A DNA stretch of 64,000 nucleotides. It comes from Paenimyroides baculatum (GTDB taxonomy: Bacteria > Bacteroidota > Bacteroidia > Flavobacteriales > Flavobacteriaceae). The position numbers were made by a program, and so were the translations under genes. Of the stretch, positions 7,285 through 49,383 are shown piece after piece. The stretch spans positions 1-64,000 of the forward strand of contig NZ_VWSG01000013.1 in NCBI RefSeq assembly GCF_008629655.1, in the 5' to 3' direction. Below the pieces are notes generated by a model that saw only the letters and a list, made by a program, of their open reading frames with translations, was not told the DNA's origin and did no database searches. Every line of letters starts with the position of its first letter. Position 1 is the first letter of the stretch.

Positions 7285-8007
7285 ATGAAAGACGATTTTT
7301 CAGAAGAAGACATCCGCATAAAAGAAAGTTTAACACAGAAATCGTGGAACGAAATCAGATCGAACGATTCGTGGGCAATTTTTAAAATTATGTCTGAATT
7401 TGTAAATGGTTACGAAAAAATGAGCCGTATTGGTCCGTGTGTATCTATTTTTGGATCGGCACGTACAAAAAACGACAATCCATATTACAAACTGGCAGAA
7501 GAAATTGCTTTTAAAATAAGTAAAGCGGGTTACGGCGTAATTTCGGGCGGAGGTCCCGGAATTATGGAAGCTGCCAATAAGGGAGCGCATTTAGGTGGCG
7601 GTCCGTCGGTAGGTTTAAACATCGATTTACCTTTTGAACAGCATTTTAATCCGTATATTGACCACGACAAAAATTTACAGTTCGATTATTTCTTTGTTCG
7701 TAAAGTAATGTTCGTAAAATATTCGCAAGGTTTTGTGGTAATGCCAGGCGGTTTTGGAACTTTAGACGAGCTGTTTGAAGCAATCACTTTGATCCAAACC
7801 AAAAAAATAGGAAAATTTCCGATAATTTTAGTCGGAACCGAATTCTGGTCTGGTTTATTTGAATGGGTAAAAAGCGTATTGCTTGAAAAATACCTGAATG
7901 CATCGCCAGAAGACATGAATCTTATAAAGGTTGTTGATACAGCCGATGAAGTAGTAGCAATTATTGATACCTTCTACAAGAAATACAATTTAAGTCCGAA
8001 TTTTTAA
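7285..8007 (+). CDS. LOG-family nucleotide 5'-monophosphate phosphoribohydrolase
   Basis: A 240-residue Rossmann-like protein of the LOG/TIGR00730 family, which cleaves ribose-5-phosphate from AMP or cytokinin monophosphates. Family motifs are intact: GGGPGIMEA (88-96), the Arg139-Lys140 pair and PGGFGTLDE (154-162), which hold the phosphoribosyl group and catalytic glutamate. It carries an extra ~45 N-terminal residues with no motif. Cytoplasmic, no signal peptide. A clear terminator follows, so it is a single-gene unit. Bacterial substrate is not certain; pyrimidine/purine nucleotide hydrolase (PpnN-like) is the alternative. Confidence 0.8.
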   Translation: MKDDFSEEDIRIKESLTQKSWNEIRSNDSWAIFKIMSEFVNGYEKMSRIGPCVSIFGSARTKNDNPYYKLAEEIAFKISKAGYGVISGGGPGIMEAANKGAHLGGGPSVGLNIDLPFEQHFNPYIDHDKNLQFDYFFVRKVMFVKYSQGFVVMPGGFGTLDELFEAITLIQTKKIGKFPIILVGTEFWSGLFEWVKSVLLEKYLNASPEDMNLIKVVDTADEVVAIIDTFYKKYNLSPNF

Positions 8008-8013
8008 TACATC

Positions 8014-8043
8014 AATCCGTTTTCAAAAGAAACGGATTTTTTT
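8014..8043 (+). terminator. Intrinsic terminator after the LOG gene
   Basis: Nine-bp perfect stem aatccgttt (8014-8022) / aaacggatt (8030-8038) with a seven-base loop, followed by a T run to 8043. Confidence 0.85.
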
Positions 8044-8065
8044 ATGCTTTTTTCCAATAAGTATC

Positions 8066-8073
8066 TATCTTTG
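8066..8073 (+). promoter_or_regulatory. -7 promoter element for hutI
   Basis: TATCTTTG fits TAnnTTTG and lies 21 bases before the hutI ATG. Confidence 0.5.
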
Positions 8074-8094
8074 GTTATCAATTTTTCAAAATAA

Positions 8095-9327
8095 ATGAAA
8101 ACCCTATTTTACAATATAAAAGAACTTTTTCAGGTTCGCGAAAACAATCAATCAATATTAAAAGGAAGTCAAATGAAAGAGCTTCCTTCTATAAAAAATG
8201 CCTTTTTAATGGTTGAAAATGATCTGATTGCAGATTATGGTTCTATGGAAAATGCACCTACAGATTTTGATGAATCGGTTGATGTTTCTGGTAAAATGAT
8301 CATGCCCAGCTATATTGACAGTCACACGCACATTGTTTATGCAGGCAACCGCGAACAAGAATTTGTTGATAGAATTAACGGTTTAAGTTATGATGAGATT
8401 TACAAACGTGGGGGCGGAATTTTAAATTCGGTAGAAAAACTGCGTAATGCTTCTGAAGACGAATTGTATAAAGATGCAGCTGCTCGTTTGGAAGAGTTAA
8501 TTGCTTTGGGAACCGGAGTTATCGAAATTAAATCGGGATATGGTTTAAGTTTAGAAGCCGAACTAAAAATGCTGCGTGTTATAAAAAAATTGCAAGATAA
8601 TTATCCTGTAAAAATTAAAGCTACGTTTTTAGGTGCGCATGCTGTTCCACCAGAATTTAAAGACAATCAAGCAGGATTTGTAGATGAAATTTGTAATGTA
8701 ATGATTCCTGAAATCGCAAAATCGGGCTTGGCAGATTATGTTGATGCTTTTTTGGAAACCGGATATTTCACCGTTGATGAAACTCGAAAAGTTATCAAAG
8801 CAGCAACAAATCACGGTTTAAAATCAAAAATCCACATTAATCAGTTTACGGCAATCAACGGAATTGAGATGTGTGTGGAAGAAAACGTTCTTACGGTAGA
8901 TCATTTGGAAATTGTTGAAGATGCAGATATTGAAGCACTGAAAAAAGGAAAAACCATTCCTGTGGCTTTGCCAACCTGTTCGTATTTTATATCAATTCCT
9001 TACACACCTGCACGTAAATTGTTAGATGCCGATTTGCCGTTGGTCATCGCATCAGATTACAATCCTGGAACAACACCAAGCGGTAACATGAATTTTGTGG
9101 TTGCAACTTCGTGCGTAAAAATGAAATTGACTCCAGAAGAAGCTTTTAACGCCGCAACATTAAATGCAGCTTACTCTCTGGAAGTTGAAAACGAATACGG
9201 CAGTATTACCAAAGGAAAAAAAGCATCGTTTTTTATTACAAAACCTCTAAATTCTATTTATGCCATTCCGTATAATTTTGGAAGCAATCCAATAGAATCG
9301 GTTTATTTAAACGGTATCAAACAATAA
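8095..9327 (+). CDS. hutI: Imidazolonepropionase HutI
   Basis: Metal-dependent amidohydrolase, 410 residues, that opens 4-imidazolone-5-propionate to N-formimino-L-glutamate, the third step of histidine degradation. Visible: the metal-binding HTH pair in SHTHIVYAG (His77, His79), FLGAHAVP, DHLEI and SDYNPGT, all diagnostic for HutI among amidohydrolases. Cytoplasmic. It is followed 212 bases later by hutG on the same strand, which supports the pathway; hutH and hutU are not in the window. Confidence 0.93.
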   Translation: MKTLFYNIKELFQVRENNQSILKGSQMKELPSIKNAFLMVENDLIADYGSMENAPTDFDESVDVSGKMIMPSYIDSHTHIVYAGNREQEFVDRINGLSYDEIYKRGGGILNSVEKLRNASEDELYKDAAARLEELIALGTGVIEIKSGYGLSLEAELKMLRVIKKLQDNYPVKIKATFLGAHAVPPEFKDNQAGFVDEICNVMIPEIAKSGLADYVDAFLETGYFTVDETRKVIKAATNHGLKSKIHINQFTAINGIEMCVEENVLTVDHLEIVEDADIEALKKGKTIPVALPTCSYFISIPYTPARKLLDADLPLVIASDYNPGTTPSGNMNFVVATSCVKMKLTPEEAFNAATLNAAYSLEVENEYGSITKGKKASFFITKPLNSIYAIPYNFGSNPIESVYLNGIKQ

Positions 9328-9330
9328 AAA

Positions 9331-9358
9331 CACAGCGGCAATTTACATTGTCGCTGTG
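9331..9358. other. Hairpin downstream of hutI
   Basis: Eleven-bp stem (9331-9341 with 9348-9358, one G-T pair). It is flanked by A runs on the + strand, so the T tail needed for termination exists only when read on the minus strand. It may still define the hutI 3' end. The rest of 9359-9539 is AT-rich with nothing I can name. Confidence 0.5.
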
Positions 9359-9539
9359 AAAAAAAATAGTTATGAAAAAGATTTTTATAAATCGAAATTT
9401 AATTATCGATATATATTTACCTATTACAAAGTTAATAATAAATCATTAATTTTGAATAAGATAACGTATGTTAAATTTTAAAAAAGTATCAATAATACTT
9501 ATAACTCTTGATTTTACTATGATTTTTTACACCTGTTAA

Positions 9540-10580
9540 ATGGAAAATTTTGAATACTTTAACACAAACACTTTATCGCAGCATTTAGTTTTAAGAAAAG
9601 ACGAAACTAAATTTGGCGAAAAAATCAAATATCCTTCTAATCAAGAAGTTAGCTTGAGCGATTTTTTAAACGAAACCAAAGCATCGTTTATTGTTTTCGG
9701 TATTAAAGAGTGTGTAGGCATCAAGGCAAATTTCGGGCGTCTGGGCGATACCCATAGCTGGGACGTGTTTTTATCGTCGTTTTTAAACATTCAGAACAAC
9801 AAATACCTTAAAGCATCAAACGTTGCGGTAATAGGTTGTTTAGATTACAAAAAATACGATGAAGAAATAGCACGTTTAAATCCGAATATTCCTGATGATC
9901 TGCAGCGTTTATACGAAATAGTTTCAGAAATAGATAAAGACGTTACGTATATGAATACGCTCATTCATCGTGCGGGTAAAAAGGCGATTGTAATTGGTGG
10001 CGGACACAATAATGCCTATGGAAACATTAAGGGATTGGCGCTGGCAAAAGGCAAAAGCGTGAATGTTGTGAATTTTGATGCCCATACCGATTTTCGAACT
10101 ATGGAAGGTCGTCACAGTGGTAACGGTTTTTCGTATGCTTTTAACGAAGGATTTTTAGATACTTACTGCGTTTTTGGTGCACATGAAAATTATTTGAACA
10201 AATATATGATGCATCAGTTTAAAGATCAGCCCGAAAAACTGAAGTTATTTACTTTTGAAGATTTAAAGGTTCGATTTGAAAAAGATTTCATCACAAGTAT
10301 AAACAACGTAAATAAGCTGATAAAAAACAAACCGTACGGAATTGAAATTGATGTGGATGCAGTCGAAAATATTGCAAGCAGTGCCATGTCATCAAGCGGA
10401 TTTTCGGTTACAGAAACGCGTCAGTTTGTACATCTAACAGCAAATAATGCAAACGCAAGCTATCTGCATTTGTGCGAAGGATCGGCAAGTTTAGGTACAT
10501 CGCCTGCAAATATGTTAGGAAAATTGTTAACATATCTTGTAACCGATTTTATAAAAGCGCAATTGCCTTACGTTAAATAG
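9540..10580 (+). CDS. hutG: Formimidoylglutamase (arginase superfamily)
   Basis: Ureohydrolase-fold enzyme of 346 residues, expected to hydrolyse N-formimino-glutamate to glutamate and formamide, finishing histidine breakdown after HutI. The dimanganese ligands are visible as GGGHNNAYG (His156), NFDAHTDFR (Asp180, His182, Asp184) and EIDVDAVE (Asp271, Asp273). The neighbouring hutI makes formimidoylglutamate the best substrate; agmatinase or arginase are less likely. A glycosyltransferase gene starts six bases after the stop and may be co-transcribed. Confidence 0.87.
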   Translation: MENFEYFNTNTLSQHLVLRKDETKFGEKIKYPSNQEVSLSDFLNETKASFIVFGIKECVGIKANFGRLGDTHSWDVFLSSFLNIQNNKYLKASNVAVIGCLDYKKYDEEIARLNPNIPDDLQRLYEIVSEIDKDVTYMNTLIHRAGKKAIVIGGGHNNAYGNIKGLALAKGKSVNVVNFDAHTDFRTMEGRHSGNGFSYAFNEGFLDTYCVFGAHENYLNKYMMHQFKDQPEKLKLFTFEDLKVRFEKDFITSINNVNKLIKNKPYGIEIDVDAVENIASSAMSSSGFSVTETRQFVHLTANNANASYLHLCEGSASLGTSPANMLGKLLTYLVTDFIKAQLPYVK

Positions 10581-10586
10581 ATTTTC

Positions 10587-11735
10587 ATGCAACTATCCGT
10601 CGTTATCTTAAATTATAATGTGAAGCACTTTTTAGAAATCTGTGTAAAAAGTGTTCAAAAAGCTATTGAAAACATCAATGGTGAAATTATTGTTGTTGAT
10701 AATGCTTCTACCGATGGATCAAAGGAAATGATGCAACACACTTTTCCTGATGTAACTTATTTGTATCAGAAAGAAAATTCTGGTTTTCCCAAAGGAAATA
10801 ATATCGGTGTTGATCTTGCAAAAGGAGAGTTTATCTGTATTTTGAATCCAGATACCATTGTTGCAGAAGATACGTTTGAAATTTTATTGAAAGAATATCA
10901 AACACTGAAAGATCCCGGGATTTTAGGTTGCAGATTGATCGACGGATCGGGCAAATTTCTTCCCGAAAGCAAACGCGGAGTGCCTACACCTTGGGTTGCT
11001 TTTACAAAAGTAGCATCGTTATATAAAATTTTTCCGAAAACAAAATGGTTTAATAAATACTACGCGCAACATATTTCTGAAAACGAAACAGGAAAGGTTG
11101 ATATTTTGGTTGGAGCGTTTATGTTTATGAAACGAAATCTTTACTTGCAAGTAGACGGGTTCGATGAAGGATGTTTTATGTACGCAGACGATATCGATTT
11201 AAGTTATATGGTTTCAAAAACAGGTTTGCAGAATTATTACGTTCCAAAAACTACTGTTATTCATTTTAAAGGAGAAAGTACGTTGAAAGACGGAAAATAT
11301 ATGATGCGTTTTAAAGAAGCCATGCAGTTTTTTTATCAAAAGCAATTTAAAACATCGTGGTGGTTCAATAGTATTATGAATATTGGTATTGCATTGTTCG
11401 CATTTAAAAAGAAATCAGAAAAAAGCAATACAACCAACTTTACAGATCATTATATTTTGGTTACCAACAACGTAACTATTTATCAAAATGTTGTAAATAA
11501 GATGGATAAACCTTTAGATTGGGTTTATTTTCTGGATGATTTCGAAACAATAAATCAGCCTAATAAAAATATCGAAGTTTTAATTGATAGCGAATCAATT
11601 AGTTATAAAGATTATATACGATTTATCAATCAAAATCAAAAAACAAATAAATCGTTTAAAATTCGAGCTTTAAAATCAGATTTTTTTATCGGAAGCAACG
11701 ATAAAAACGATAGGGGAGAAATTTTATCTTTCTAA
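10587..11735 (+). CDS. Family 2 glycosyltransferase (WbbL-like)
   Basis: A 382-residue GT-A glycosyltransferase. The N-terminus SVVILNYNVKHFLEIC and VDNASTDGS form the nucleotide-sugar site; LNPDTIV carries the DxD-type metal motif, and the ADDIDLS segment holds the likely catalytic acid. After residue ~270 there is a weak hydrophobic patch, then a ~100-residue tail (ending FIGSNDKNDRGEI) that I recall from other flavobacterial glycosyltransferases but cannot name. Likely cytoplasmic side of the membrane, acting on a lipid-linked or surface glycan. It starts six bases after hutG, an odd operon partner. Confidence 0.8.
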   Translation: MQLSVVILNYNVKHFLEICVKSVQKAIENINGEIIVVDNASTDGSKEMMQHTFPDVTYLYQKENSGFPKGNNIGVDLAKGEFICILNPDTIVAEDTFEILLKEYQTLKDPGILGCRLIDGSGKFLPESKRGVPTPWVAFTKVASLYKIFPKTKWFNKYYAQHISENETGKVDILVGAFMFMKRNLYLQVDGFDEGCFMYADDIDLSYMVSKTGLQNYYVPKTTVIHFKGESTLKDGKYMMRFKEAMQFFYQKQFKTSWWFNSIMNIGIALFAFKKKSEKSNTTNFTDHYILVTNNVTIYQNVVNKMDKPLDWVYFLDDFETINQPNKNIEVLIDSESISYKDYIRFINQNQKTNKSFKIRALKSDFFIGSNDKNDRGEILSF

Positions 11736-11780
11736 CCATTAAAAATTTTAAATAAACAGGTAAATAGTCTTAAAAATTAC

Positions 11781-11788
11781 TATTTTTG
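11781..11788 (+). promoter_or_regulatory. -7 promoter element for the E2 gene
   Basis: TATTTTTG fits TAnnTTTG and lies 37 bases before the ATG at 11826. Confidence 0.5.
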
Positions 11789-11825
11789 TAATACTTTAAT
11801 CTAAATACAACTCTTTACTAAAAAT

Positions 11826-13130
11826 ATGGCAAAGTTTGAATTAAAATTACCTAAAATGGGTGAAAGTGTTGCAGAGGCAACCATTACAAATTGGGTAAAA
11901 AATGTTGGAGATACTGTTGAACAAGACGAAACAATTGTTGAAGTAGCTACCGATAAAGTTGATAGTGAAGTACCTACTGAAGTTAGTGGTAAAATAATTG
12001 AAATTTTATTTCAGAAAGATGATGTTGTTCAAGTAGGGCAAACAATTGCCATTATTGAAACAGAAGGTGGCGATGCTGCACAACCAAGTGCTGCACCTGC
12101 AAAAGAAGAAGTTTCGGTTGAAAAAGTTGAAAAAACAGTAACACAGGCACAAGAAACTGTAGAAGCTGCGGATTTTAATGCATCGGAAAAGTTTTTCTCG
12201 CCTTTAGTTAAGAATATTGCAAAAGAAGAAGGTATTTCTATTGCCGAATTAGAAGCAATCAACGGAACCGGAAAAGATGGTAGAATTACCAAAACAGATA
12301 TATTAGATTACGTTAAAAACAGAGGTTCACAACCTGCGGCAGCTCCTGTTCAAAAAACAGCGGCTCCAGCACAAACTGCACAGCCAGTTGCTGCTAAAGC
12401 GGCACCGGTTTCTGTAAACGGACAAGACGAGATTGTAGAAATGGATCGTATGCGTAAAATGATTGCGCACCACATGGTTCAATCGGTTCAAACATCGGCT
12501 CACGTTCAGTCGTTTATCGAAGTTGATGTTACAAACATCGTAAACTGGAGAAATAAAACTAAAAATGCTTTCGAGAAGAGAGAAGGAGAGAAGCTTACTT
12601 TTACACCGATCTTTATGGAAGCTGTTGCAAAAGCATTGAAAGATTTCCCAATGATGAATATTTCGGTTGATGGTGATTATATCATTAAACGTAAAAATAT
12701 TAATTTAGGAATGGCTGCGGCTTTACCAAACGGAAATTTAATTGTTCCTGTAATTAAAAATGCAGACCAATTGAATTTAGTTGGAATGGCAAAAGCGGTT
12801 AACGATTTAGCAGATCGCGCAAGAAATGGTAAATTAAAACCAGACGATACACAAGGTGCAACATACACAGTTACAAACGTTGGTACATTTGGATCTGTTT
12901 TCGGTACACCAATCATTAGTCAGCCGCAAGTAGGTATTTTAGCTTTGGGAGCTATTAGAAAAGTTCCTGCGGTTATTGAAACTCCTGAAGGTGATTTCAT
13001 TGGTATCCGTCAAAAAATGTTCTTATCACATTCTTATGACCACCGAGTTGTAGATGGTTCTTTAGGCGGACAGTTTGTTCAAAGAGTGGCAAATTATTTA
13101 GAAGCTTTTGATCCTAACAGAGATATTTAA
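11826..13130 (+). CDS. 2-oxo acid dehydrogenase E2 (dihydrolipoyl acyltransferase)
   Basis: A 434-residue acyltransferase core of a 2-oxo acid dehydrogenase complex. Order of parts: lipoyl domain 1-80 with lipoylated Lys44 in ATDKVDS, a Pro/Ala/Gln-rich linker, the peripheral-subunit-binding domain ~140-180 (SPLVKNIAKEEG ... GKDGRITKTDI), a second linker, and the catalytic domain with SYDHRVVDG (His406). The DKVDSEVP lipoyl context and single lipoyl domain resemble branched-chain E2 more than pyruvate E2. No E1 or E3 gene is adjacent, so partner subunits are encoded elsewhere and substrate is inferred. Confidence 0.88.
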   Translation: MAKFELKLPKMGESVAEATITNWVKNVGDTVEQDETIVEVATDKVDSEVPTEVSGKIIEILFQKDDVVQVGQTIAIIETEGGDAAQPSAAPAKEEVSVEKVEKTVTQAQETVEAADFNASEKFFSPLVKNIAKEEGISIAELEAINGTGKDGRITKTDILDYVKNRGSQPAAAPVQKTAAPAQTAQPVAAKAAPVSVNGQDEIVEMDRMRKMIAHHMVQSVQTSAHVQSFIEVDVTNIVNWRNKTKNAFEKREGEKLTFTPIFMEAVAKALKDFPMMNISVDGDYIIKRKNINLGMAAALPNGNLIVPVIKNADQLNLVGMAKAVNDLADRARNGKLKPDDTQGATYTVTNVGTFGSVFGTPIISQPQVGILALGAIRKVPAVIETPEGDFIGIRQKMFLSHSYDHRVVDGSLGGQFVQRVANYLEAFDPNRDI

Positions 13131-43827: not shown

Positions 43828-45315
43828 ATGATCAACTACTACGTTGTTTTAGAAATTCCGAATTTTTCAGATCAGGCGGTTATAAAAAAGGCATACAGAA
43901 AGTTGTCTAAAAAGTATCATCCCGATGTGAATAAAGATCCGTTTGCGAGTTCGTGTTTTTTAAAGATTAGCGAAGCTTATAATTTTTTGATTGATGATAA
44001 CAAACGCATGTTGTTGCATCAGTTTTTATACCTTCATGAAGTTTCACAAGTAGCAAAAGATAATTATCAAACTAAACATCAAGAAACACACACACAAAAT
44101 CAACAGCAAAATTCAGTTCAAGTAGAACCTGTTATCCATTTATTTTCTGCCGATAAAAAACATTTCGTTTTAAACGATCATATTTTGTTGCAGTGGAGTG
44201 TTAGTCAGTGTAAATCTGTGACCATAAATGTTTTTGGAAATGTTGCTTTTTCGGGAACACATTATTTAAAAATTGATCATTTTGCAGAAGAAATTATTGT
44301 TTTAATGACAGTTGTAGGCTTCGACGATAAAGAATATAAGTATCAGATAAAATTGCAGTACCGCAATAAAAATCCTGCTAAAAGAGCTTTTCAGCAAATA
44401 AAATCTCAATATCCCAATGCCGATGAAATCCATTTTAAAAAGGAAACTTTCTTTGGTTTACATACCCGTATAAGTAAAACCGAGTTTAAAAACCGAATGT
44501 TTCTTTTAGGATCATTATTTTTAATATTGACTGTTTTGTTCTTTTTAACAAATGCTAAAACACTCGTTTTCTTTTTATTACTTATACTGTCTTGGATTAT
44601 TTTTAGTCAGTGTTACAAACGCATACACGATACCGAAAAATATAAATATAAAGTCGGTTTGTTGCTAATTCCAATTTATAATTTATTTATTATCAGTAAA
44701 TTATTTGTTTTAGATAGTGAACGACAGGTTAATGAATTTGGAATGATTTCTGAAAAATCCACCGATAATTTTAAAGATTGGATTGCGAATGGATTTAAAG
44801 TTCTAAATAAACAGGTAACATTGCTACAAAAACTGTCAATAGGTAGTTTTTTATTTTTGGTTATTTTAGTATTGTTCAAAAGCACCAGCACATATCAAGA
44901 AATTCAGGTAAATCTGACGTCGTATTATATTGATACATCAAGACCAAACACAAACGGAAGTATACACAGAGATTATTTTGTGGTTTTTAACGATAAAATA
45001 CCCGTAAATGTTTCCGAAAATTATTTTGACGAAATTGTTTATCGCAAAAAATTCGATACATATAAAATTGCTTTAAATAACAATAATGTAGAATACATCC
45101 GATTGATCGATTCTAAAAACAACAATACCGAACGGTTGAATTTTGGCGTGCTTCAAAGTAATAATCCGTTACTTATAATTACATTTTTACTGTTTTTAAG
45201 TCAGTTGTATGTGTGGCGAAACCTTACAAAACCTGCAGAACTAAAATTCGCTAACGGATACATGGTTTTTGTCATGATTATTTATCTGTACGCCATTTTT
45301 GTAACACTATTTTAA
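43828..45315 (+). CDS. J-domain membrane protein with DUF805-like segment
   Basis: A 495-residue protein. Residues 1-65 form a J domain with the HPD tripeptide (KKYHPDVNKD), which stimulates DnaK-type chaperones. A Gln/His-rich linker and a beta-rich domain (~100-185) follow, then a paired membrane region (~230-265), the motif YKRIHDTEKYKYKVGLLLIPIYNLFIISKLF, resembling DUF805, one more span at ~340 and two at the C-terminus. Such a J-protein would bring DnaK to the cytoplasmic membrane face. The architecture is unusual and its client is unknown. Confidence 0.75.
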   Translation: MINYYVVLEIPNFSDQAVIKKAYRKLSKKYHPDVNKDPFASSCFLKISEAYNFLIDDNKRMLLHQFLYLHEVSQVAKDNYQTKHQETHTQNQQQNSVQVEPVIHLFSADKKHFVLNDHILLQWSVSQCKSVTINVFGNVAFSGTHYLKIDHFAEEIIVLMTVVGFDDKEYKYQIKLQYRNKNPAKRAFQQIKSQYPNADEIHFKKETFFGLHTRISKTEFKNRMFLLGSLFLILTVLFFLTNAKTLVFFLLLILSWIIFSQCYKRIHDTEKYKYKVGLLLIPIYNLFIISKLFVLDSERQVNEFGMISEKSTDNFKDWIANGFKVLNKQVTLLQKLSIGSFLFLVILVLFKSTSTYQEIQVNLTSYYIDTSRPNTNGSIHRDYFVVFNDKIPVNVSENYFDEIVYRKKFDTYKIALNNNNVEYIRLIDSKNNNTERLNFGVLQSNNPLLIITFLLFLSQLYVWRNLTKPAELKFANGYMVFVMIIYLYAIFVTLF

Positions 45316-45345: not shown

Positions 45346-45363
45346 TTCTAATTAGATTTTAAT
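45346..45363 (+). promoter_or_regulatory. Direct-repeat operator TTCTAAT-N4-TTTTAAT
   Basis: Two heptamers with an 11-base period (45346-45352, 45357-45363), the layout of OmpR/PhoB-family sites. They lie 21 bases upstream of the -7 box of the response-regulator gene. The second heptamer with its flank (TTTTAATCAC) is identical to the first repeat of the array at 47483. Confidence 0.6.
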
Positions 45364-45384: not shown

Positions 45385-45392
45385 TATTTTTG
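45385..45392 (+). promoter_or_regulatory. -7 promoter element for the response regulator
   Basis: TATTTTTG, 18 bases before the ATG at 45411. Confidence 0.55.
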
Positions 45393-45410: not shown

Positions 45411-46109
45411 ATGAGTACAATATTAATAATTGAAGACGAACAGCACGTAGCCGACCTGATTAAACAGAGTTTGGAAGAAGAAGGTTATAATGTGCTGCAT
45501 GCTGCTGATGGTTTGAAGGGAATTGAATTGATAAAATCAGAAAATATTCAGTTGGTAATATTAGATATTTTACTGCCAAAAATGAACGGGTTGGAAGTTT
45601 GCAGACAGATCCGCAACGATGGTTATACCGATCTTCCAGTGTTGATTTTAACGGCTTTAGGCAGTGCAGAAAATATTGTTTTAGGATTTGATACCGGTGC
45701 CGATGATTATTTGGCAAAACCTTTTAAGCTGATTGAACTGAAAGCTCGAATTAAAAATCTTTTAAGACGAAGCGAGTTTTTCGATGCCAATGGAACGGTG
45801 ATTAACGATGTATACAAATTTGCCGATTTAGAATTGAATGATTACACCAAAAAAGTCACTCGAAATAATAATGAAATCTCGTTAACATCTACAGAATATC
45901 GCTTGTTGTTGGAATTTATGAAAAACCCTACAAAGGTTTTAAACCGTGGCGATTTGTTAGATAACGTTTGGGGAATTAACTTTGACAACGGCACAAATGT
46001 AGTTGACGTTTATGTAAATTATCTGCGTAAAAAACTGGATAAATTTGGCGATAAAAAATTAATTCACACTGTTACCGGTATGGGTTATGTTCTAAAAAAT
46101 GACGCATGA
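45411..46109 (+). CDS. OmpR-family response regulator
   Basis: A 232-residue two-domain regulator: receiver domain with acidic pocket IIEDE, phospho-acceptor Asp52 (ILDILLPKMNG), Thr and Lys105 regions (LTALGS; LAKPF), then a winged-helix effector (EISLTSTEYRLLLEFMKNP ... VDVYVNYLRKKLDKFG). The earlier ATG at 45390 sits in the promoter and is rejected. Its stop overlaps the kinase start by four bases (ATGA). Confidence 0.93.
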   Translation: MSTILIIEDEQHVADLIKQSLEEEGYNVLHAADGLKGIELIKSENIQLVILDILLPKMNGLEVCRQIRNDGYTDLPVLILTALGSAENIVLGFDTGADDYLAKPFKLIELKARIKNLLRRSEFFDANGTVINDVYKFADLELNDYTKKVTRNNNEISLTSTEYRLLLEFMKNPTKVLNRGDLLDNVWGINFDNGTNVVDVYVNYLRKKLDKFGDKKLIHTVTGMGYVLKNDA

Positions 46110-47482
46110 AAACCTATAGCAAAACCGTACTAACCATTGTTTTAATTTTTGTTGTTTACACCTTAATTTTTACAGGATATATTTATTATTCGTTTTCGAA
46201 TTTTGCTTTTGAAGATTTCTATAAACGGCTGGAATTAAGAGCCGGAACCATAGCAACTATGCAATTGGGCGAACCTGAAGAATCGTTAAAGGTTAAAGAA
46301 ACGTACGAGAATTTTTTAGAAAATCTGCCTAAACAGAAATACTATATTCTTCCTATTGAAAATAATCAGATTGTAGGCGAAATTCCGCAAGAAGTTCCTT
46401 CTAAAGTGGTTCGAAATACCTTAAAAAGCAAAGCTTTTAATTACAATAATGCTGATTTGTTTTATAGCGGATTAATTTACGAAGACGCTAAAAAGAACAA
46501 ATATGTTGTGGTTGTTTCTGCAGAAAATTATTTCTATACCCATCATATTATTTACCTTCGAAACTTACTGATAACATCACTTGTGTTTTCGCTGCTTCTT
46601 ATTTTTGTGATTTCTCATTTTGTATTGCGAACGTTGATTCGACCAGTAAAATCGATCATAAAAGATGTAAATAAAATCGGGTCAGAAAATTTACACCTTC
46701 GCTTGGAAGTTTCAGATGCTAAACACAAAGATCCAATCAGCGAACTGAAATATACATTTAATGATATGTTGAATCGTATTGAAACATCTTTTGAAACCCA
46801 GAAGAATTTCATCAGTAACGCATCGCACGAATTAAATACGCCGTTGACATCGATAATAGGCGAGGCAGACCTTATTCTTTCTAAAGAACGATCGATTCCC
46901 GAATACGAAAAAGCACTGACAAATATTTTGTTAGAAGCCGAAAAATTGGAAGAAAAAACCAAAGCACTGCTTTTTTTAGCGCGAACCGGTTATACCGAAA
47001 ATACCAAACGTTTTGATAAAGTGCGTGTTGACGAATTGTTGATGGAAGTTCAGCAAAACCTTTCAAGAGTAAACAAGAATCTTAAAATTAAGATGGATTT
47101 CAGCTTACTGCCCGAAAGTCCAGAAAAATTAAAAATCAAAGGAAATGAACAATTGCTTCATTTGGCAATTTCAAACATTATATCAAATGCCAGCAAATAT
47201 TCAGACAATAATGAGGTTTATCTGGCATTGGGCGCTACCGAACAATCTGTTGTAATCATCATTAAAGATAAGGGTATTGGTATTCCAGAATCGGAAATGC
47301 CGTATATTTTTGATCCTTATTTTAGGGCATCAAACACCTTTAATTATGAAGGTTACGGTATTGGATTGCCTTTAAGCCGTAACATTATTAAAATGCATAA
47401 TGGCGAATTATTGATAAAATCTGTCGAAAAAAGCGGTACAACTGTACAAATTATTTTGCCTACAGGAAACTACAAACTGTAA
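46106..47482 (+). CDS. Sensor histidine kinase
   Basis: A 458-residue membrane kinase. Two spans (~8-28 and ~152-172) enclose a periplasmic sensor of ~120 residues; then HAMP (LIRPVKSIIKDVNKIGSENLHLRL), HisKA with phospho-accepting His241 (SNASHELNTPLTSI), and the ATPase N, G1 and G2 boxes (NIISNASKYS, KDKGIGIP, GYGIGLPLSRNI). Forms a pair with the upstream regulator. Its signal is not evident; the general build resembles envelope- or metal-sensing kinases. Confidence 0.93.
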   Translation: MKTYSKTVLTIVLIFVVYTLIFTGYIYYSFSNFAFEDFYKRLELRAGTIATMQLGEPEESLKVKETYENFLENLPKQKYYILPIENNQIVGEIPQEVPSKVVRNTLKSKAFNYNNADLFYSGLIYEDAKKNKYVVVVSAENYFYTHHIIYLRNLLITSLVFSLLLIFVISHFVLRTLIRPVKSIIKDVNKIGSENLHLRLEVSDAKHKDPISELKYTFNDMLNRIETSFETQKNFISNASHELNTPLTSIIGEADLILSKERSIPEYEKALTNILLEAEKLEEKTKALLFLARTGYTENTKRFDKVRVDELLMEVQQNLSRVNKNLKIKMDFSLLPESPEKLKIKGNEQLLHLAISNIISNASKYSDNNEVYLALGATEQSVVIIIKDKGIGIPESEMPYIFDPYFRASNTFNYEGYGIGLPLSRNIIKMHNGELLIKSVEKSGTTVQIILPTGNYKL

Positions 47483-47552
47483 TTTTAATCACATTCTAAT
47501 AACTGCCTTATTTTCTAATAACTTTATAATTTCATTCTAAAACCCTTCTAAT
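47483..47552 (+). promoter_or_regulatory. Six-copy TTCTAAT operator array, 11-bp phased
   Basis: Heptamers at 47483 (TTTTAAT), 47494 (TTCTAAT), 47513 (TTCTAAT), 47524 (TTATAAT), 47535 (TTCTAAA) and 47546 (TTCTAAT). Steps are 11, 19, 11, 11 and 11 bases. This is the direct-repeat geometry of OmpR/PhoB-type regulators. The array starts at the kinase stop codon and ends 11 bases before the -7 box of the usp operon. Confidence 0.7.
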
Positions 47553-47563
47553 ACCAACGGTCG

Positions 47564-47571
47564 TAATTTTG
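47564..47571 (+). promoter_or_regulatory. -7 promoter element of the usp-lipocalin-DUF1275 operon
   Basis: TAATTTTG, 21 bases before the ATG at 47593. The last repeat of the array covers the -33 region. Confidence 0.6.
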
Positions 47572-47592
47572 TTTCAAACATTAGGTGAAATT

Positions 47593-48099
47593 ATGAGCGC
47601 AGTAAAAAAAGTATTGATTCCTACCGATTTCAATGTTAAATCGTTAAATGTATTGTTAGAATTTTTAAGAAGAAACCCTAACGACCAATTCGAAGTTATT
47701 TTGGCGCATGGTTATGATATGTCTTATTCTTTTAGAGATTTATTGTTTTATTCTGAATACAAAATTCTTAAAAAAATACAATCAGATGAGTTTTGTGAAT
47801 CGTGTAAATTAATCGAAAACACGTATCAGTCTAAACTTACAAAATTAAAATTCAGCATTTTAACCGGTAGCACCAAACGCTATGTTAGAAATTATGTTGA
47901 AGCAAATAATATTGATTTTATTGTTTGCTGTAACGATTACAAAATGAAGTTTAAATCAAGAGATAGTTTCAACTTAATACCTTACTTAAAAGCTACAAAA
48001 GTTGAAATAATTAATATTGAAAACACACAGAATGTCGTAACAGAGTTGGAACATTCGGAACAACTTGCCGATATTTTTTTATCAAGCATAGAACAATGA
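47593..48099 (+). CDS. Universal-stress-protein-like protein
   Basis: A 168-residue single Usp-like domain (KKVLIPTDFNVKSLNVLLEFLRRNPNDQFEVILAHG). The ATP-binding glycine signature is missing: the region corresponding to it reads CCNDYKMKFKSRDSFNLIPYLKATKVEIINIE, so nucleotide binding is unlikely. A closely placed pair of cysteines (FCESCKL) is a peculiarity. First gene of an operon behind the TTCTAAT array and therefore a likely target of the adjacent two-component system. Four-base overlap with the next gene. Confidence 0.75.
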   Translation: MSAVKKVLIPTDFNVKSLNVLLEFLRRNPNDQFEVILAHGYDMSYSFRDLLFYSEYKILKKIQSDEFCESCKLIENTYQSKLTKLKFSILTGSTKRYVRNYVEANNIDFIVCCNDYKMKFKSRDSFNLIPYLKATKVEIINIENTQNVVTELEHSEQLADIFLSSIEQ

Positions 48100-48584
48100 G
48101 AAAAACAGCACCGTTTGCATATAGTTTAATTTTAATAGTACTGCTTTGTTGTGGAACTGCATTAATTAAGGGCGATAGTCCCGAAGATTTAATTGTGGGG
48201 AAATGGGAAGAAGTAGACTGGAATTTTGAACGAATTAATGTAGATTCTACAGAGGTAAACGGCAATTTGTTAGCTTACCAGAAAAACGAACTCTACAACA
48301 ATATGATTATTCATCAGGGTGAAGAGTGGGAGTTTTTTCCGAAAAAAAAGCTGACTTTAACTCCGAAAGATAATTCTGAAGAGAAAAAGATCAAATGGTA
48401 TTTAAAAGGTCGTGGTAATATTTTAGAACTTCGATATGGCGATGATGTAGTAGAAAGTTATCAGGTTCACAAACTAACCAAAGATACCATGGTTATTTAT
48501 TACAATTTTGATTTGCAGATGAGGGGAAGCGTTAAAATCACCTTTAAAAAAGTAGAAGAACAAGATTATGCTCAGAAAATATAG
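48096..48584 (+). CDS. Exported lipocalin-like protein
   Basis: A 162-residue exported protein. The hydrophobic leader ends in LLCCGTA; either cysteine might be a lipobox residue. The mature part has the pattern of Bacteroidota lipocalin-like domains: LIVGKWEEVDWNF near the start, alternating strands and KKITFKKV-type end. Probably an envelope stress protein that binds a small ligand. Four-base overlap with the usp-like gene and 17-base overlap with the DUF1275 gene. Confidence 0.65.
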   Translation: MRKTAPFAYSLILIVLLCCGTALIKGDSPEDLIVGKWEEVDWNFERINVDSTEVNGNLLAYQKNELYNNMIIHQGEEWEFFPKKKLTLTPKDNSEEKKIKWYLKGRGNILELRYGDDVVESYQVHKLTKDTMVIYYNFDLQMRGSVKITFKKVEEQDYAQKI

Positions 48585-49383
48585 TACACATAGAACGCAT
48601 GACGATAATTTAAAATTAGGCGCACTTACTGCTTTTTCGGCAGGAATGGTCAATGTTATATCTGTAATTGTGTTTTTTGCTTTTACATCGAACATAACAG
48701 GTCATTATGCTGTTTTTGCACAAGAACTTGCAAAAGGAAACTGGTTTCAGGCGGCAATTGTTATTCTGTGGATTATATTATTCTTTTTCGGAAGTTTTAC
48801 ATCGAACTTTGTAATTATCCACGGAAACAAATACATTGGCAGGTATTTATCGCATGCTATTCCTATTATTTTGGAAATTATCTGTTTGCTTGTTGTTGGA
48901 ATTTATCTTCAAGGATTTTATACCGAAAGTTTGCAGGAAACCGAGTTTTTAGTAGGATTATTATTGTTCGCAATGGGACTTCAAAACGGATTAACCGCAA
49001 GTATATCTAATTCGGCAGTAAAAACAACCCACTTAACAGGTTTAACAACCGATTTGGCTATTGCACTTTCTATGATGACCAAAAAACATTACAGAAAAGA
49101 CGAAAAGGTAATAGAAAAAATACAGCTTTTAAGTTCTATTATGTTTTTTTATGTGTTGGGCGGCGTAATTACAGGCGTGCTTTACAACACTATTCAAAAC
49201 TATACGTTTTATATTGTTTGTTTTTTCTTAACGATTATTATTCTTTACGATTACTATAAACTGACGGTTTTAAAGTACAATCACAAAAAGCTTTTCAGTT
49301 TAAGACAAGAAGCAAGAGAAAGTAAAAACAATATTCAGGAAGAACAAAACAATAACATAACAGAGAAAAATACCTGTTATTAA
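48568..49383 (+). CDS. DUF1275 (YoaK-type) membrane protein
   Basis: A 271-residue protein with six or seven membrane segments; AFSAGMVNVISVIVFFAFTSNITGH near the N-terminus and LLLFAMGLQNGLTASISNSAVKTTHLTGLTTDLA in the middle are the two characteristic motifs of DUF1275. Function of the family is not known. A charged C-terminal tail (~240-271) is cytosolic. Last gene of the operon; starts 17 bases inside the preceding gene. Confidence 0.88.
   Translation: MLRKYSTHRTHDDNLKLGALTAFSAGMVNVISVIVFFAFTSNITGHYAVFAQELAKGNWFQAAIVILWIILFFFGSFTSNFVIIHGNKYIGRYLSHAIPIILEIICLLVVGIYLQGFYTESLQETEFLVGLLLFAMGLQNGLTASISNSAVKTTHLTGLTTDLAIALSMMTKKHYRKDEKVIEKIQLLSSIMFFYVLGGVITGVLYNTIQNYTFYIVCFFLTIIILYDYYKLTVLKYNHKKLFSLRQEARESKNNIQEEQNNNITEKNTCY

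Follow-up and report, generated by a model that had tools for sequence, protein, structure and literature searches.

A phased heptamer array before a usp–DUF1275 operon of Paenimyroides baculatum, a probable operator of the adjacent OmpR/PhoB-family regulator

Between a sensor histidine kinase (HK) gene and a usp-like operon of Paenimyroides baculatum lie six phased heptamers, which are best explained as the operator through which the adjacent OmpR/PhoB-family response regulator (RR) controls, and probably activates, the usp operon; the probability of this reading is put at about 0.87. The array itself, its strict geometry, its deep conservation, its linkage to usp, a second site at the RR gene and a link between recognition helix and motif are the observations on which the argument is built. 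Bacteroidota have a promoter consensus of their own and, to our knowledge, few two-component operators have been defined in this phylum so far. Through a conserved phased operator, an uncharacterised stress system of several Bacteroidota lineages would become directly accessible to study; such an operator would tie this system to Usp-like and DUF1275 proteins and give a testable rule leading from recognition helix to motif.

The array and its genomic setting

The features concerned are collected in Table 1. All six heptamers are on the plus strand with at most one mismatch to TTCTAAT, and their start-to-start differences are 11, 19, 11, 11 and 11; no such heptamer was found on the minus strand of positions 47460-47585. 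The array lies between the HK gene and the ATG of the usp-like gene: its first base directly follows the HK stop codon (47480-47482) on the 3' side, and 11 bases separate the last heptamer from the -7 box. Heptamers, spacings and distance to the box had been given in the initial annotation, and recounting the coordinates found these figures exact. The box conforms to TAnnTTTG, the -7 consensus reported for Flavobacterium psychrophilum (PMC9723704); if it spans -12 to -5, as in that study, the heptamers cover approximately -93 to -24. A TTG at the expected -33 place of this promoter is not present.

Table 1. Features of the regulator–kinase–usp region in the window, that is, the whole stretch of 64,000 nucleotides analysed; a slot is the start of a heptamer counted from the -7 box
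Feature	Coordinates	Strand	Remarks
Heptamer TTCTAAT, RR gene's own promoter	45346..45352	+	slot 39
Heptamer TTTTAAT, RR gene's own promoter	45357..45363	+	slot 28
-7 box of RR gene	45385..45392	+	TATTTTTG
OmpR/PhoB-family response regulator (RR)	45411..46109	+	Response_reg and Trans_reg_C; recognition helix GTNVVDVYVNYLRKK
Sensor histidine kinase (HK)	46106..47482	+	HisKA, HATPase_c; modelled N-terminal sensor of mixed alpha/beta fold
Heptamer 1, TTTTAAT	47483..47489	+	slot 81
Heptamer 2, TTCTAAT	47494..47500	+	slot 70
Heptamer 3, TTCTAAT	47513..47519	+	slot 51
Heptamer 4, TTATAAT	47524..47530	+	slot 40
Heptamer 5, TTCTAAA	47535..47541	+	slot 29
Heptamer 6, TTCTAAT	47546..47552	+	slot 18
-7 box of usp operon	47564..47571	+	TAATTTTG; consensus TAnnTTTG (PMC9723704)
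Divergent UspA-like gene, operon gene 1	47593..48099	+	
Small protein, operon gene 2	48096..48584	+	N-terminal hydrophobic stretch
DUF1275 membrane protein, operon gene 3	48568..49383	+	PF06912, 3.4e-33, 115.6 bits against a gathering cut-off of 25.4

Four strictly 11-bp-spaced heptamers represent the maximum of the window over all periods from 7 to 22. In 100 simulated third-order Markov sequences of 64 kb, strict runs did not go beyond 2, and three in-phase copies within 80 bp turned up 4 times; simulating the local 110 bp 20,000 times with a first-order model gave 3 in-phase copies at most. That such regularity is most unlikely to be due to chance, as initially claimed, is borne out by these simulations together with the fixed spacing, strand and slots described below. 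Across the genome, TTCTAAT-N4-TTCTAAT with up to two mismatches occurs 90+86 times against 75+87 for the reversed pattern, and exact YTYTAAT-N4-YTYTAAT 10+4 against 5+7. Because genome-wide dimers hardly exceed the reversed pattern, the array is a local feature and no genome-wide repeat; the motif search proposed as a check thus upheld the array as a local feature but gave no clear genome-wide excess of dimers. These are also the counts of a hunt for the regulon in this genome with single dimers, from which individual sites with the right slots are regulon candidates only.

Genes of the window and usp members were compared with Pfam and NCBIfam profiles, and all others mentioned here were named by eye from their sequences. 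The position of the recognition helix was set by analogy with known family members of the regulator. A structural model of the HK sensor domain (pLDDT 86.8) found no match in the PDB at E<=0.001; the best ones were 4zr7 (3.4e-03), CzcS 5gpo (1.4e-02) and CpxA 8uk7 (1.9e-02), and the modelled domain resembles other sensor domains only weakly. Of 34 aligned usp members, 16 match the Usp profile (PF00582) at E<=0.1, the best of them at 8e-06; the protein encoded in the window does not match it. For the small protein, neither Pfam nor NCBIfam gave a match above cut-off, and the name 'lipocalin' proposed initially for this middle gene finds no support there. The DUF1275 assignment passes the Pfam cut-off (Table 1), and a model of this protein (pLDDT 79) gave weak MFS-type matches only (best E 2.6e-02), in line with TCDB, which puts DUF1275 near MFS (PMC7778945). 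An identity as SulP-like anion transporter is unsupported. Upstream of the RR gene lies a gene for a DnaJ-domain protein with a DUF805 region (43828-45315), which has full-length matches at this place in only three of the 80 loci surveyed below (L034, L035 and L036).

Conservation and fixed geometry across Bacteroidota

Loci related to the window (labelled with L-numbers) were gathered from named Bacteroidota genomes by HK similarity only, the array being disregarded, and the best 80 of 104 confirmed relatives were kept. Sphingobacterium is heavily represented among them, the others being from its relatives, Flavobacteriia, Cytophagales and several MAGs; the window HK is 98% identical to that of P. 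ummariense (L034). An RR match was found in all 80 loci and usp in 76, the best usp match being located at most 600 bp behind the HK in 72; the small gene and DUF1275 were both matched in 60. Every one of the 76 usp loci has one or more exact YTYTAAT heptamers in the 250 bp before usp, and 68/76 have an exact dimer YTYTAAT-N4-YTYTAAT there, the eight loci without the dimer being L038, L044, L048, L052, L054, L095, L103 and L109. Among 250-bp tiles of the same loci, a dimer is found in 81/4063 on the plus strand (targets included) and in 1/4063 on the minus strand. In four loci (L099, L104, L111 and L049, whose stretch stops at the contig end) the fetched DNA gave no usp match, and none of them has a dimer behind the HK. 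The G+C content of dimer-bearing loci extends from 28 to 52%.

The repeats are found again, with their distance to the -7 box, in lineages ranging from Paenimyroides to Sphingobacterium, Algoriphagus and Zunongwangia. The initial annotation had named repeats lost beside a conserved promoter as evidence against its reading; comparison among relatives found the repeats conserved along with the promoter. Alignments A1 and A2 used 38 and 34 of the available sequences, and A3 left out 9 of the 32 first given. Within Paenimyroides heptamers and spacers are conserved to about the same degree, L036 keeping 38/42 heptamer and 24/28 spacer positions of the window, and selection is therefore visible only in the wider comparison. 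In 39/80 loci (L037, L039, L040 and 36 others) the HK stop codon itself lies inside an exact heptamer, which in 38 cases has a partner 11 bp on; therefore the end of the protein and the operator are constrained together.

Six Sphingobacterium loci (L076, L079, L083, L084, L087 and L112) contain another double dimer, located about 4.4 kb on. The best usp match stands directly behind it in L076, L083 and L087; in L084, the locus whose genes were listed, an ABC/HlyD/TolC-like insert comes first, and the double dimer precedes a second usp that continues into the small gene (at 7454-12960 of this locus, the second usp has its own array and the ABC/HlyD/TolC-like set lies between both usp genes). 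When 395 genomes of the phylum were searched for the exact double dimer, 2 matches (L122 and L123) were obtained, each ahead of a start codon and a usp-like N-terminal sequence; L122 is not an independent case, since it reads like the promoter of L057. In six loci (L097, L098, L101, L107, L110 and L113) a SulP-like transporter replaces the small gene and DUF1275 behind usp. The usp system is patchy in the window's GTDB genus: a kinase match at 1e-60 was found in 25/61 same-genus genomes and was missing from 36/61, and HK identity exceeds 40% in only three (own, L010 and L011). L010 and L011 repeat the order RR, HK, array, usp, small gene and DUF1275.

Spacing is close to invariant. Heptamer pairs in the 167 nt behind the HK are spaced by 11 in 90 cases, by 9 in one and by 7, 8, 10 or 12-17 in none; longer spacings of 18, 19 and 20 occur 17, 21 and 25 times, respectively. 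The other strand has 9 heptamers in this region and zero pairs. Placement relative to the promoter is fixed as well. The count covered the 59 promoters (the window's among them) that have an exact TAnnTTTG and left out the 18/77 without one in the searched 90 bp; 217/219 exact heptamers fall in eight narrow slots, which start at 17-18, 28, 39-40, 50-51, 69-71, 80-82, 99-101 and 110-112 from the -7 box; the two strays both belong to L105. When only one locus per group was taken (33 rows, window included, imperfect -7 box allowed), the best offsets were 50, 39, 70, 28, 17 and 81. A dimer, TTCTAATTAGATTTTAAT (45346-45363), also occurs in the RR's own promoter, at slots 39 and 28 of its box. When the window's 101 TAnnTTTG sites (both strands) were scored by slot, the usp promoter came to 26/28, the RR promoter to 22 and the next site to 18; of these, the RR score is the sole independent test, because the slots came from usp promoters.

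OmpR/PhoB-type operators are a known kind, recognized by direct repeats of about 7 bp with 11-bp spacing, one strand and a strict 4-bp spacer, by a linked regulator with receiver and Trans_reg_C domains, and by fixed placement relative to the promoter. The array and its neighbour have the first two features, and the third holds for usp promoters and is weaker in other targets (12/26 loci, see below). The proposal that sites for OmpR/PhoB-type dimers are present here is thus supported by the 7+4 geometry, by the adjacent regulator with Response_reg and Trans_reg_C domains and by conservation in distant lineages.

Recognition helix, paralogues and further targets

Across 20 orthologues, the recognition helix shows only a few, conservative changes. 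Of 97 further OmpR-family matches, the best 60, from 26 genomes, served to compare similarity of the helix (10 or more of 15 residues identical) with the presence of an array nearby (score of at least 18 of 21 for three 11-bp-spaced heptamers). With helix and score cut-offs that were chosen after the table had been seen, and with loci partly dependent on each other, a score of at least 18 is reached by 10/16 regulators with a similar helix versus 2/44 others (Fisher p ~6e-6), and the 11-bp spacing beats the best of six other spacings in 11/16 versus 5/44 (p ~3e-5). In the controls, the best of six other spacings reaches 18 in 4/16 similar-helix and 3/44 other cases, and the minus strand in 0/16 and 2/44. 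The recognition helix is thus linked statistically to the nearby motif. Below 18 are 6/16 similar-helix regulators. L188 has an identical helix, yet no array; in L191, where a Usp-like and a bestrophin-like gene follow, no array was found either.

In 17 same-genus relatives of the kinase (L012-L028, with helices of the NTNV(V/I)DVYI type) there is no exact dimer behind the HK; all 17 have one to five exact heptamers in the 320 bp behind the HK, and the 11-bp spacing beats six other spacings in 15/17. Five further same-genus loci share the helix GTNFIDVYINYLRKK: an exact dimer lies 47-83 bp behind the HK in L029, L031 and L032, and the nearest dimers of L030 and L033 are at distances of 584 and 1402 bp, respectively. 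SulP-like, bestrophin-like and TDT-like genes (named by eye) also occur behind related regulators.

In the same genome, a paralogous regulator (40% identity, helix HTNVVDVYISYLRNK) is encoded on contig C11, about 4.7 kb from an outer-membrane-factor gene. The promoter of this CzcC-like gene carries TTCTAATGCAATTCTAAT at slots 50/39, and the same slots recur before CzcC-like genes in four more genomes (L154, L155, L158 and L170). Two metal-efflux-like operons of the P. baculatum genome have a dimer at slots 50/39, at C11:15983-16000 (L001) and C14:18613-18630 (L118); the C14 dimer precedes genes for a 125-aa protein and a CzcA-like pump. When 26 further loci were compared with the slots, 12 fitted (at least 20 of 28), 12 did not and 2 were without an exact TAnnTTTG; with only 12/26 fitting, the register holds less strictly for targets other than usp. 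A dimer is also found upstream of a similar AraC-like gene in the same genome and in P. ummariense; of the two loci, L157 has it at slots 40/29 and L120 without a good -7 box.

A broader generalization is tentative, its chances falling a little short of even: one cis-code may serve a whole clade of regulators, most helices of the TNVVDVY(V/I)NYLRKK type reading 11-bp-phased TTYTAAT-like heptamers, often in the same slots, at promoters that for the most part drive genes of membrane transport (DUF1275, SulP-like, CzcC/CzcA-like efflux), whether or not a Usp partner is present. Were this true, the targets of many uncharacterised two-component systems would be predictable from sequence alone, and in many species the kinase stop codon would be part of the operator of the target.

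Mechanism, alternatives and known systems

We infer that the regulator binds the array, that binding depends on phosphorylation and is cooperative, and that it leads to activation. In the proposed mechanism, the kinase would phosphorylate the regulator, dimers of which would sit head to tail on heptamer pairs (7-bp site, 4-bp spacer, one per DNA turn) and stack along the array, ending beside an RNA polymerase positioned at a TAnnTTTG -7 box without a -33 TTG. The stacked regulator would then most likely turn on usp and the genes behind it. Stacking of the phosphorylated regulator towards RNA polymerase is suggested by analogy with Mycobacterium tuberculosis PhoP (PMC4832192). The reach of the heptamers over about -93 to -24, together with the lack of a TTG at -33 of the usp promoter, is the reason for reading the control as activation, which is held with moderate certainty. 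The single dimer at the RR's own promoter may confer autoregulation in Paenimyroides. As a dimer upstream of the RR occurs in only 9/79 loci and in zero Sphingobacterium ones, autoregulation is not general.

Control might instead be exerted by another protein or with the opposite sign. The array could be read, mainly or in addition, by a paralogue whose helix is nearly identical, for instance the one encoded on contig C11, and this would amount to metal-sensor control or cross-talk; the paralogue's helix and the nearby efflux promoter, with its slots repeated in L154, L155, L158 and L170, are compatible with this, but the usp array stays beside its own RR–HK pair in distant lineages and the promoter of this RR carries the motif, so that the paralogue is an unlikely reader. 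The array could also be the operator of a repressor, the bound regulator blocking the -7/-33 region, since only 11 bases lie between the last heptamer and the -7 box, and heptamers stand around the -33 place. However, the missing TTG would rather suit an activator-dependent promoter, and the arrays begin as far as about 110 bp before the -7 box, probably beyond what blocking needs; repression is accordingly considered improbable.

Readings that dispense with a DNA-binding regulator fare worse. The position of the array directly behind the HK gene, whose stop codon so often falls within an exact heptamer (39/80 loci), might suggest an RNA-level or terminator element of this gene, but six loci have their second double dimer about 4.4 kb from the HK (before a second usp in L084), HK loci without a usp match have no dimer, and the register is kept to the -7 box. 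The array accompanies usp, not the HK, and an element of the latter kind is rejected as very improbable. Equally rejected, with scarcely any probability left, are chance in AT-rich DNA and a generic A/T tract resembling an UP element: the motif is AT-rich and genome-wide dimers are hardly in excess, but simulations and conservation tell against both, as do the fixed spacing and strand, the fixed slots and the occurrence in loci of 28 to 52% G+C. An operator of the adjacent regulator thus remains the preferred explanation of the array.

The operator kind has well-known representatives. The pho box of Escherichia coli PhoB and the boxes of Bacillus PhoP and WalR are 11-bp-phased direct repeats beside or over the -35 region; they differ from the usp array in motif, sigma-factor consensus and regulons. 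Among the matches listed from open-licence literature, the usp-linked system, its motif, the fixed slots and the phylum-wide reach were not found; in open-licence papers, no match joined DUF1275 with two-component systems in Bacteroidetes or universal stress protein with DUF1275. By sequence, the regulator and the kinase are closest to the CusR/CzcR/SilR regulators (TIGR01387, cztR_silR_copR) and their kinases (TIGR01386), the best-scoring NCBIfam models with 210.3 and 192 bits, respectively; unlike members of these families, they score below the curated cut-offs of 279.2 and 292.55, and the regulator likewise falls below that of the Bacteroides PhoB model NF053854 (171.6 bits against 270). 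The resemblance to heavy-metal regulators extends to the paralogue near a CzcC-like operon in the same genome, whereas the target here is usp–DUF1275 instead of an efflux pump. RprY of Porphyromonas gingivalis (PMC3646045) is comparable as a stress-response regulator of Bacteroidota, and the usp gene PG0245 appears in the expression tables of that paper; in contrast to the usp system, the one TTCTAAT in the paper belongs to a primer, and its text has no 'direct repeat' or 'binding site' wording. A parallel in architecture is M. tuberculosis PhoP, another OmpR/PhoB-family regulator: according to PMC4832192, its sites are 7-bp direct repeats with a strict 4-bp spacer, and three or four repeats are bound more strongly than two. 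Unlike the PhoP sites, of which the heptamer is TCACAGC, the usp promoters have a different heptamer, with up to five exact copies arranged in 11-bp-phase blocks 18-20 bp apart and held in a fixed register to the Bacteroidota -7 box.
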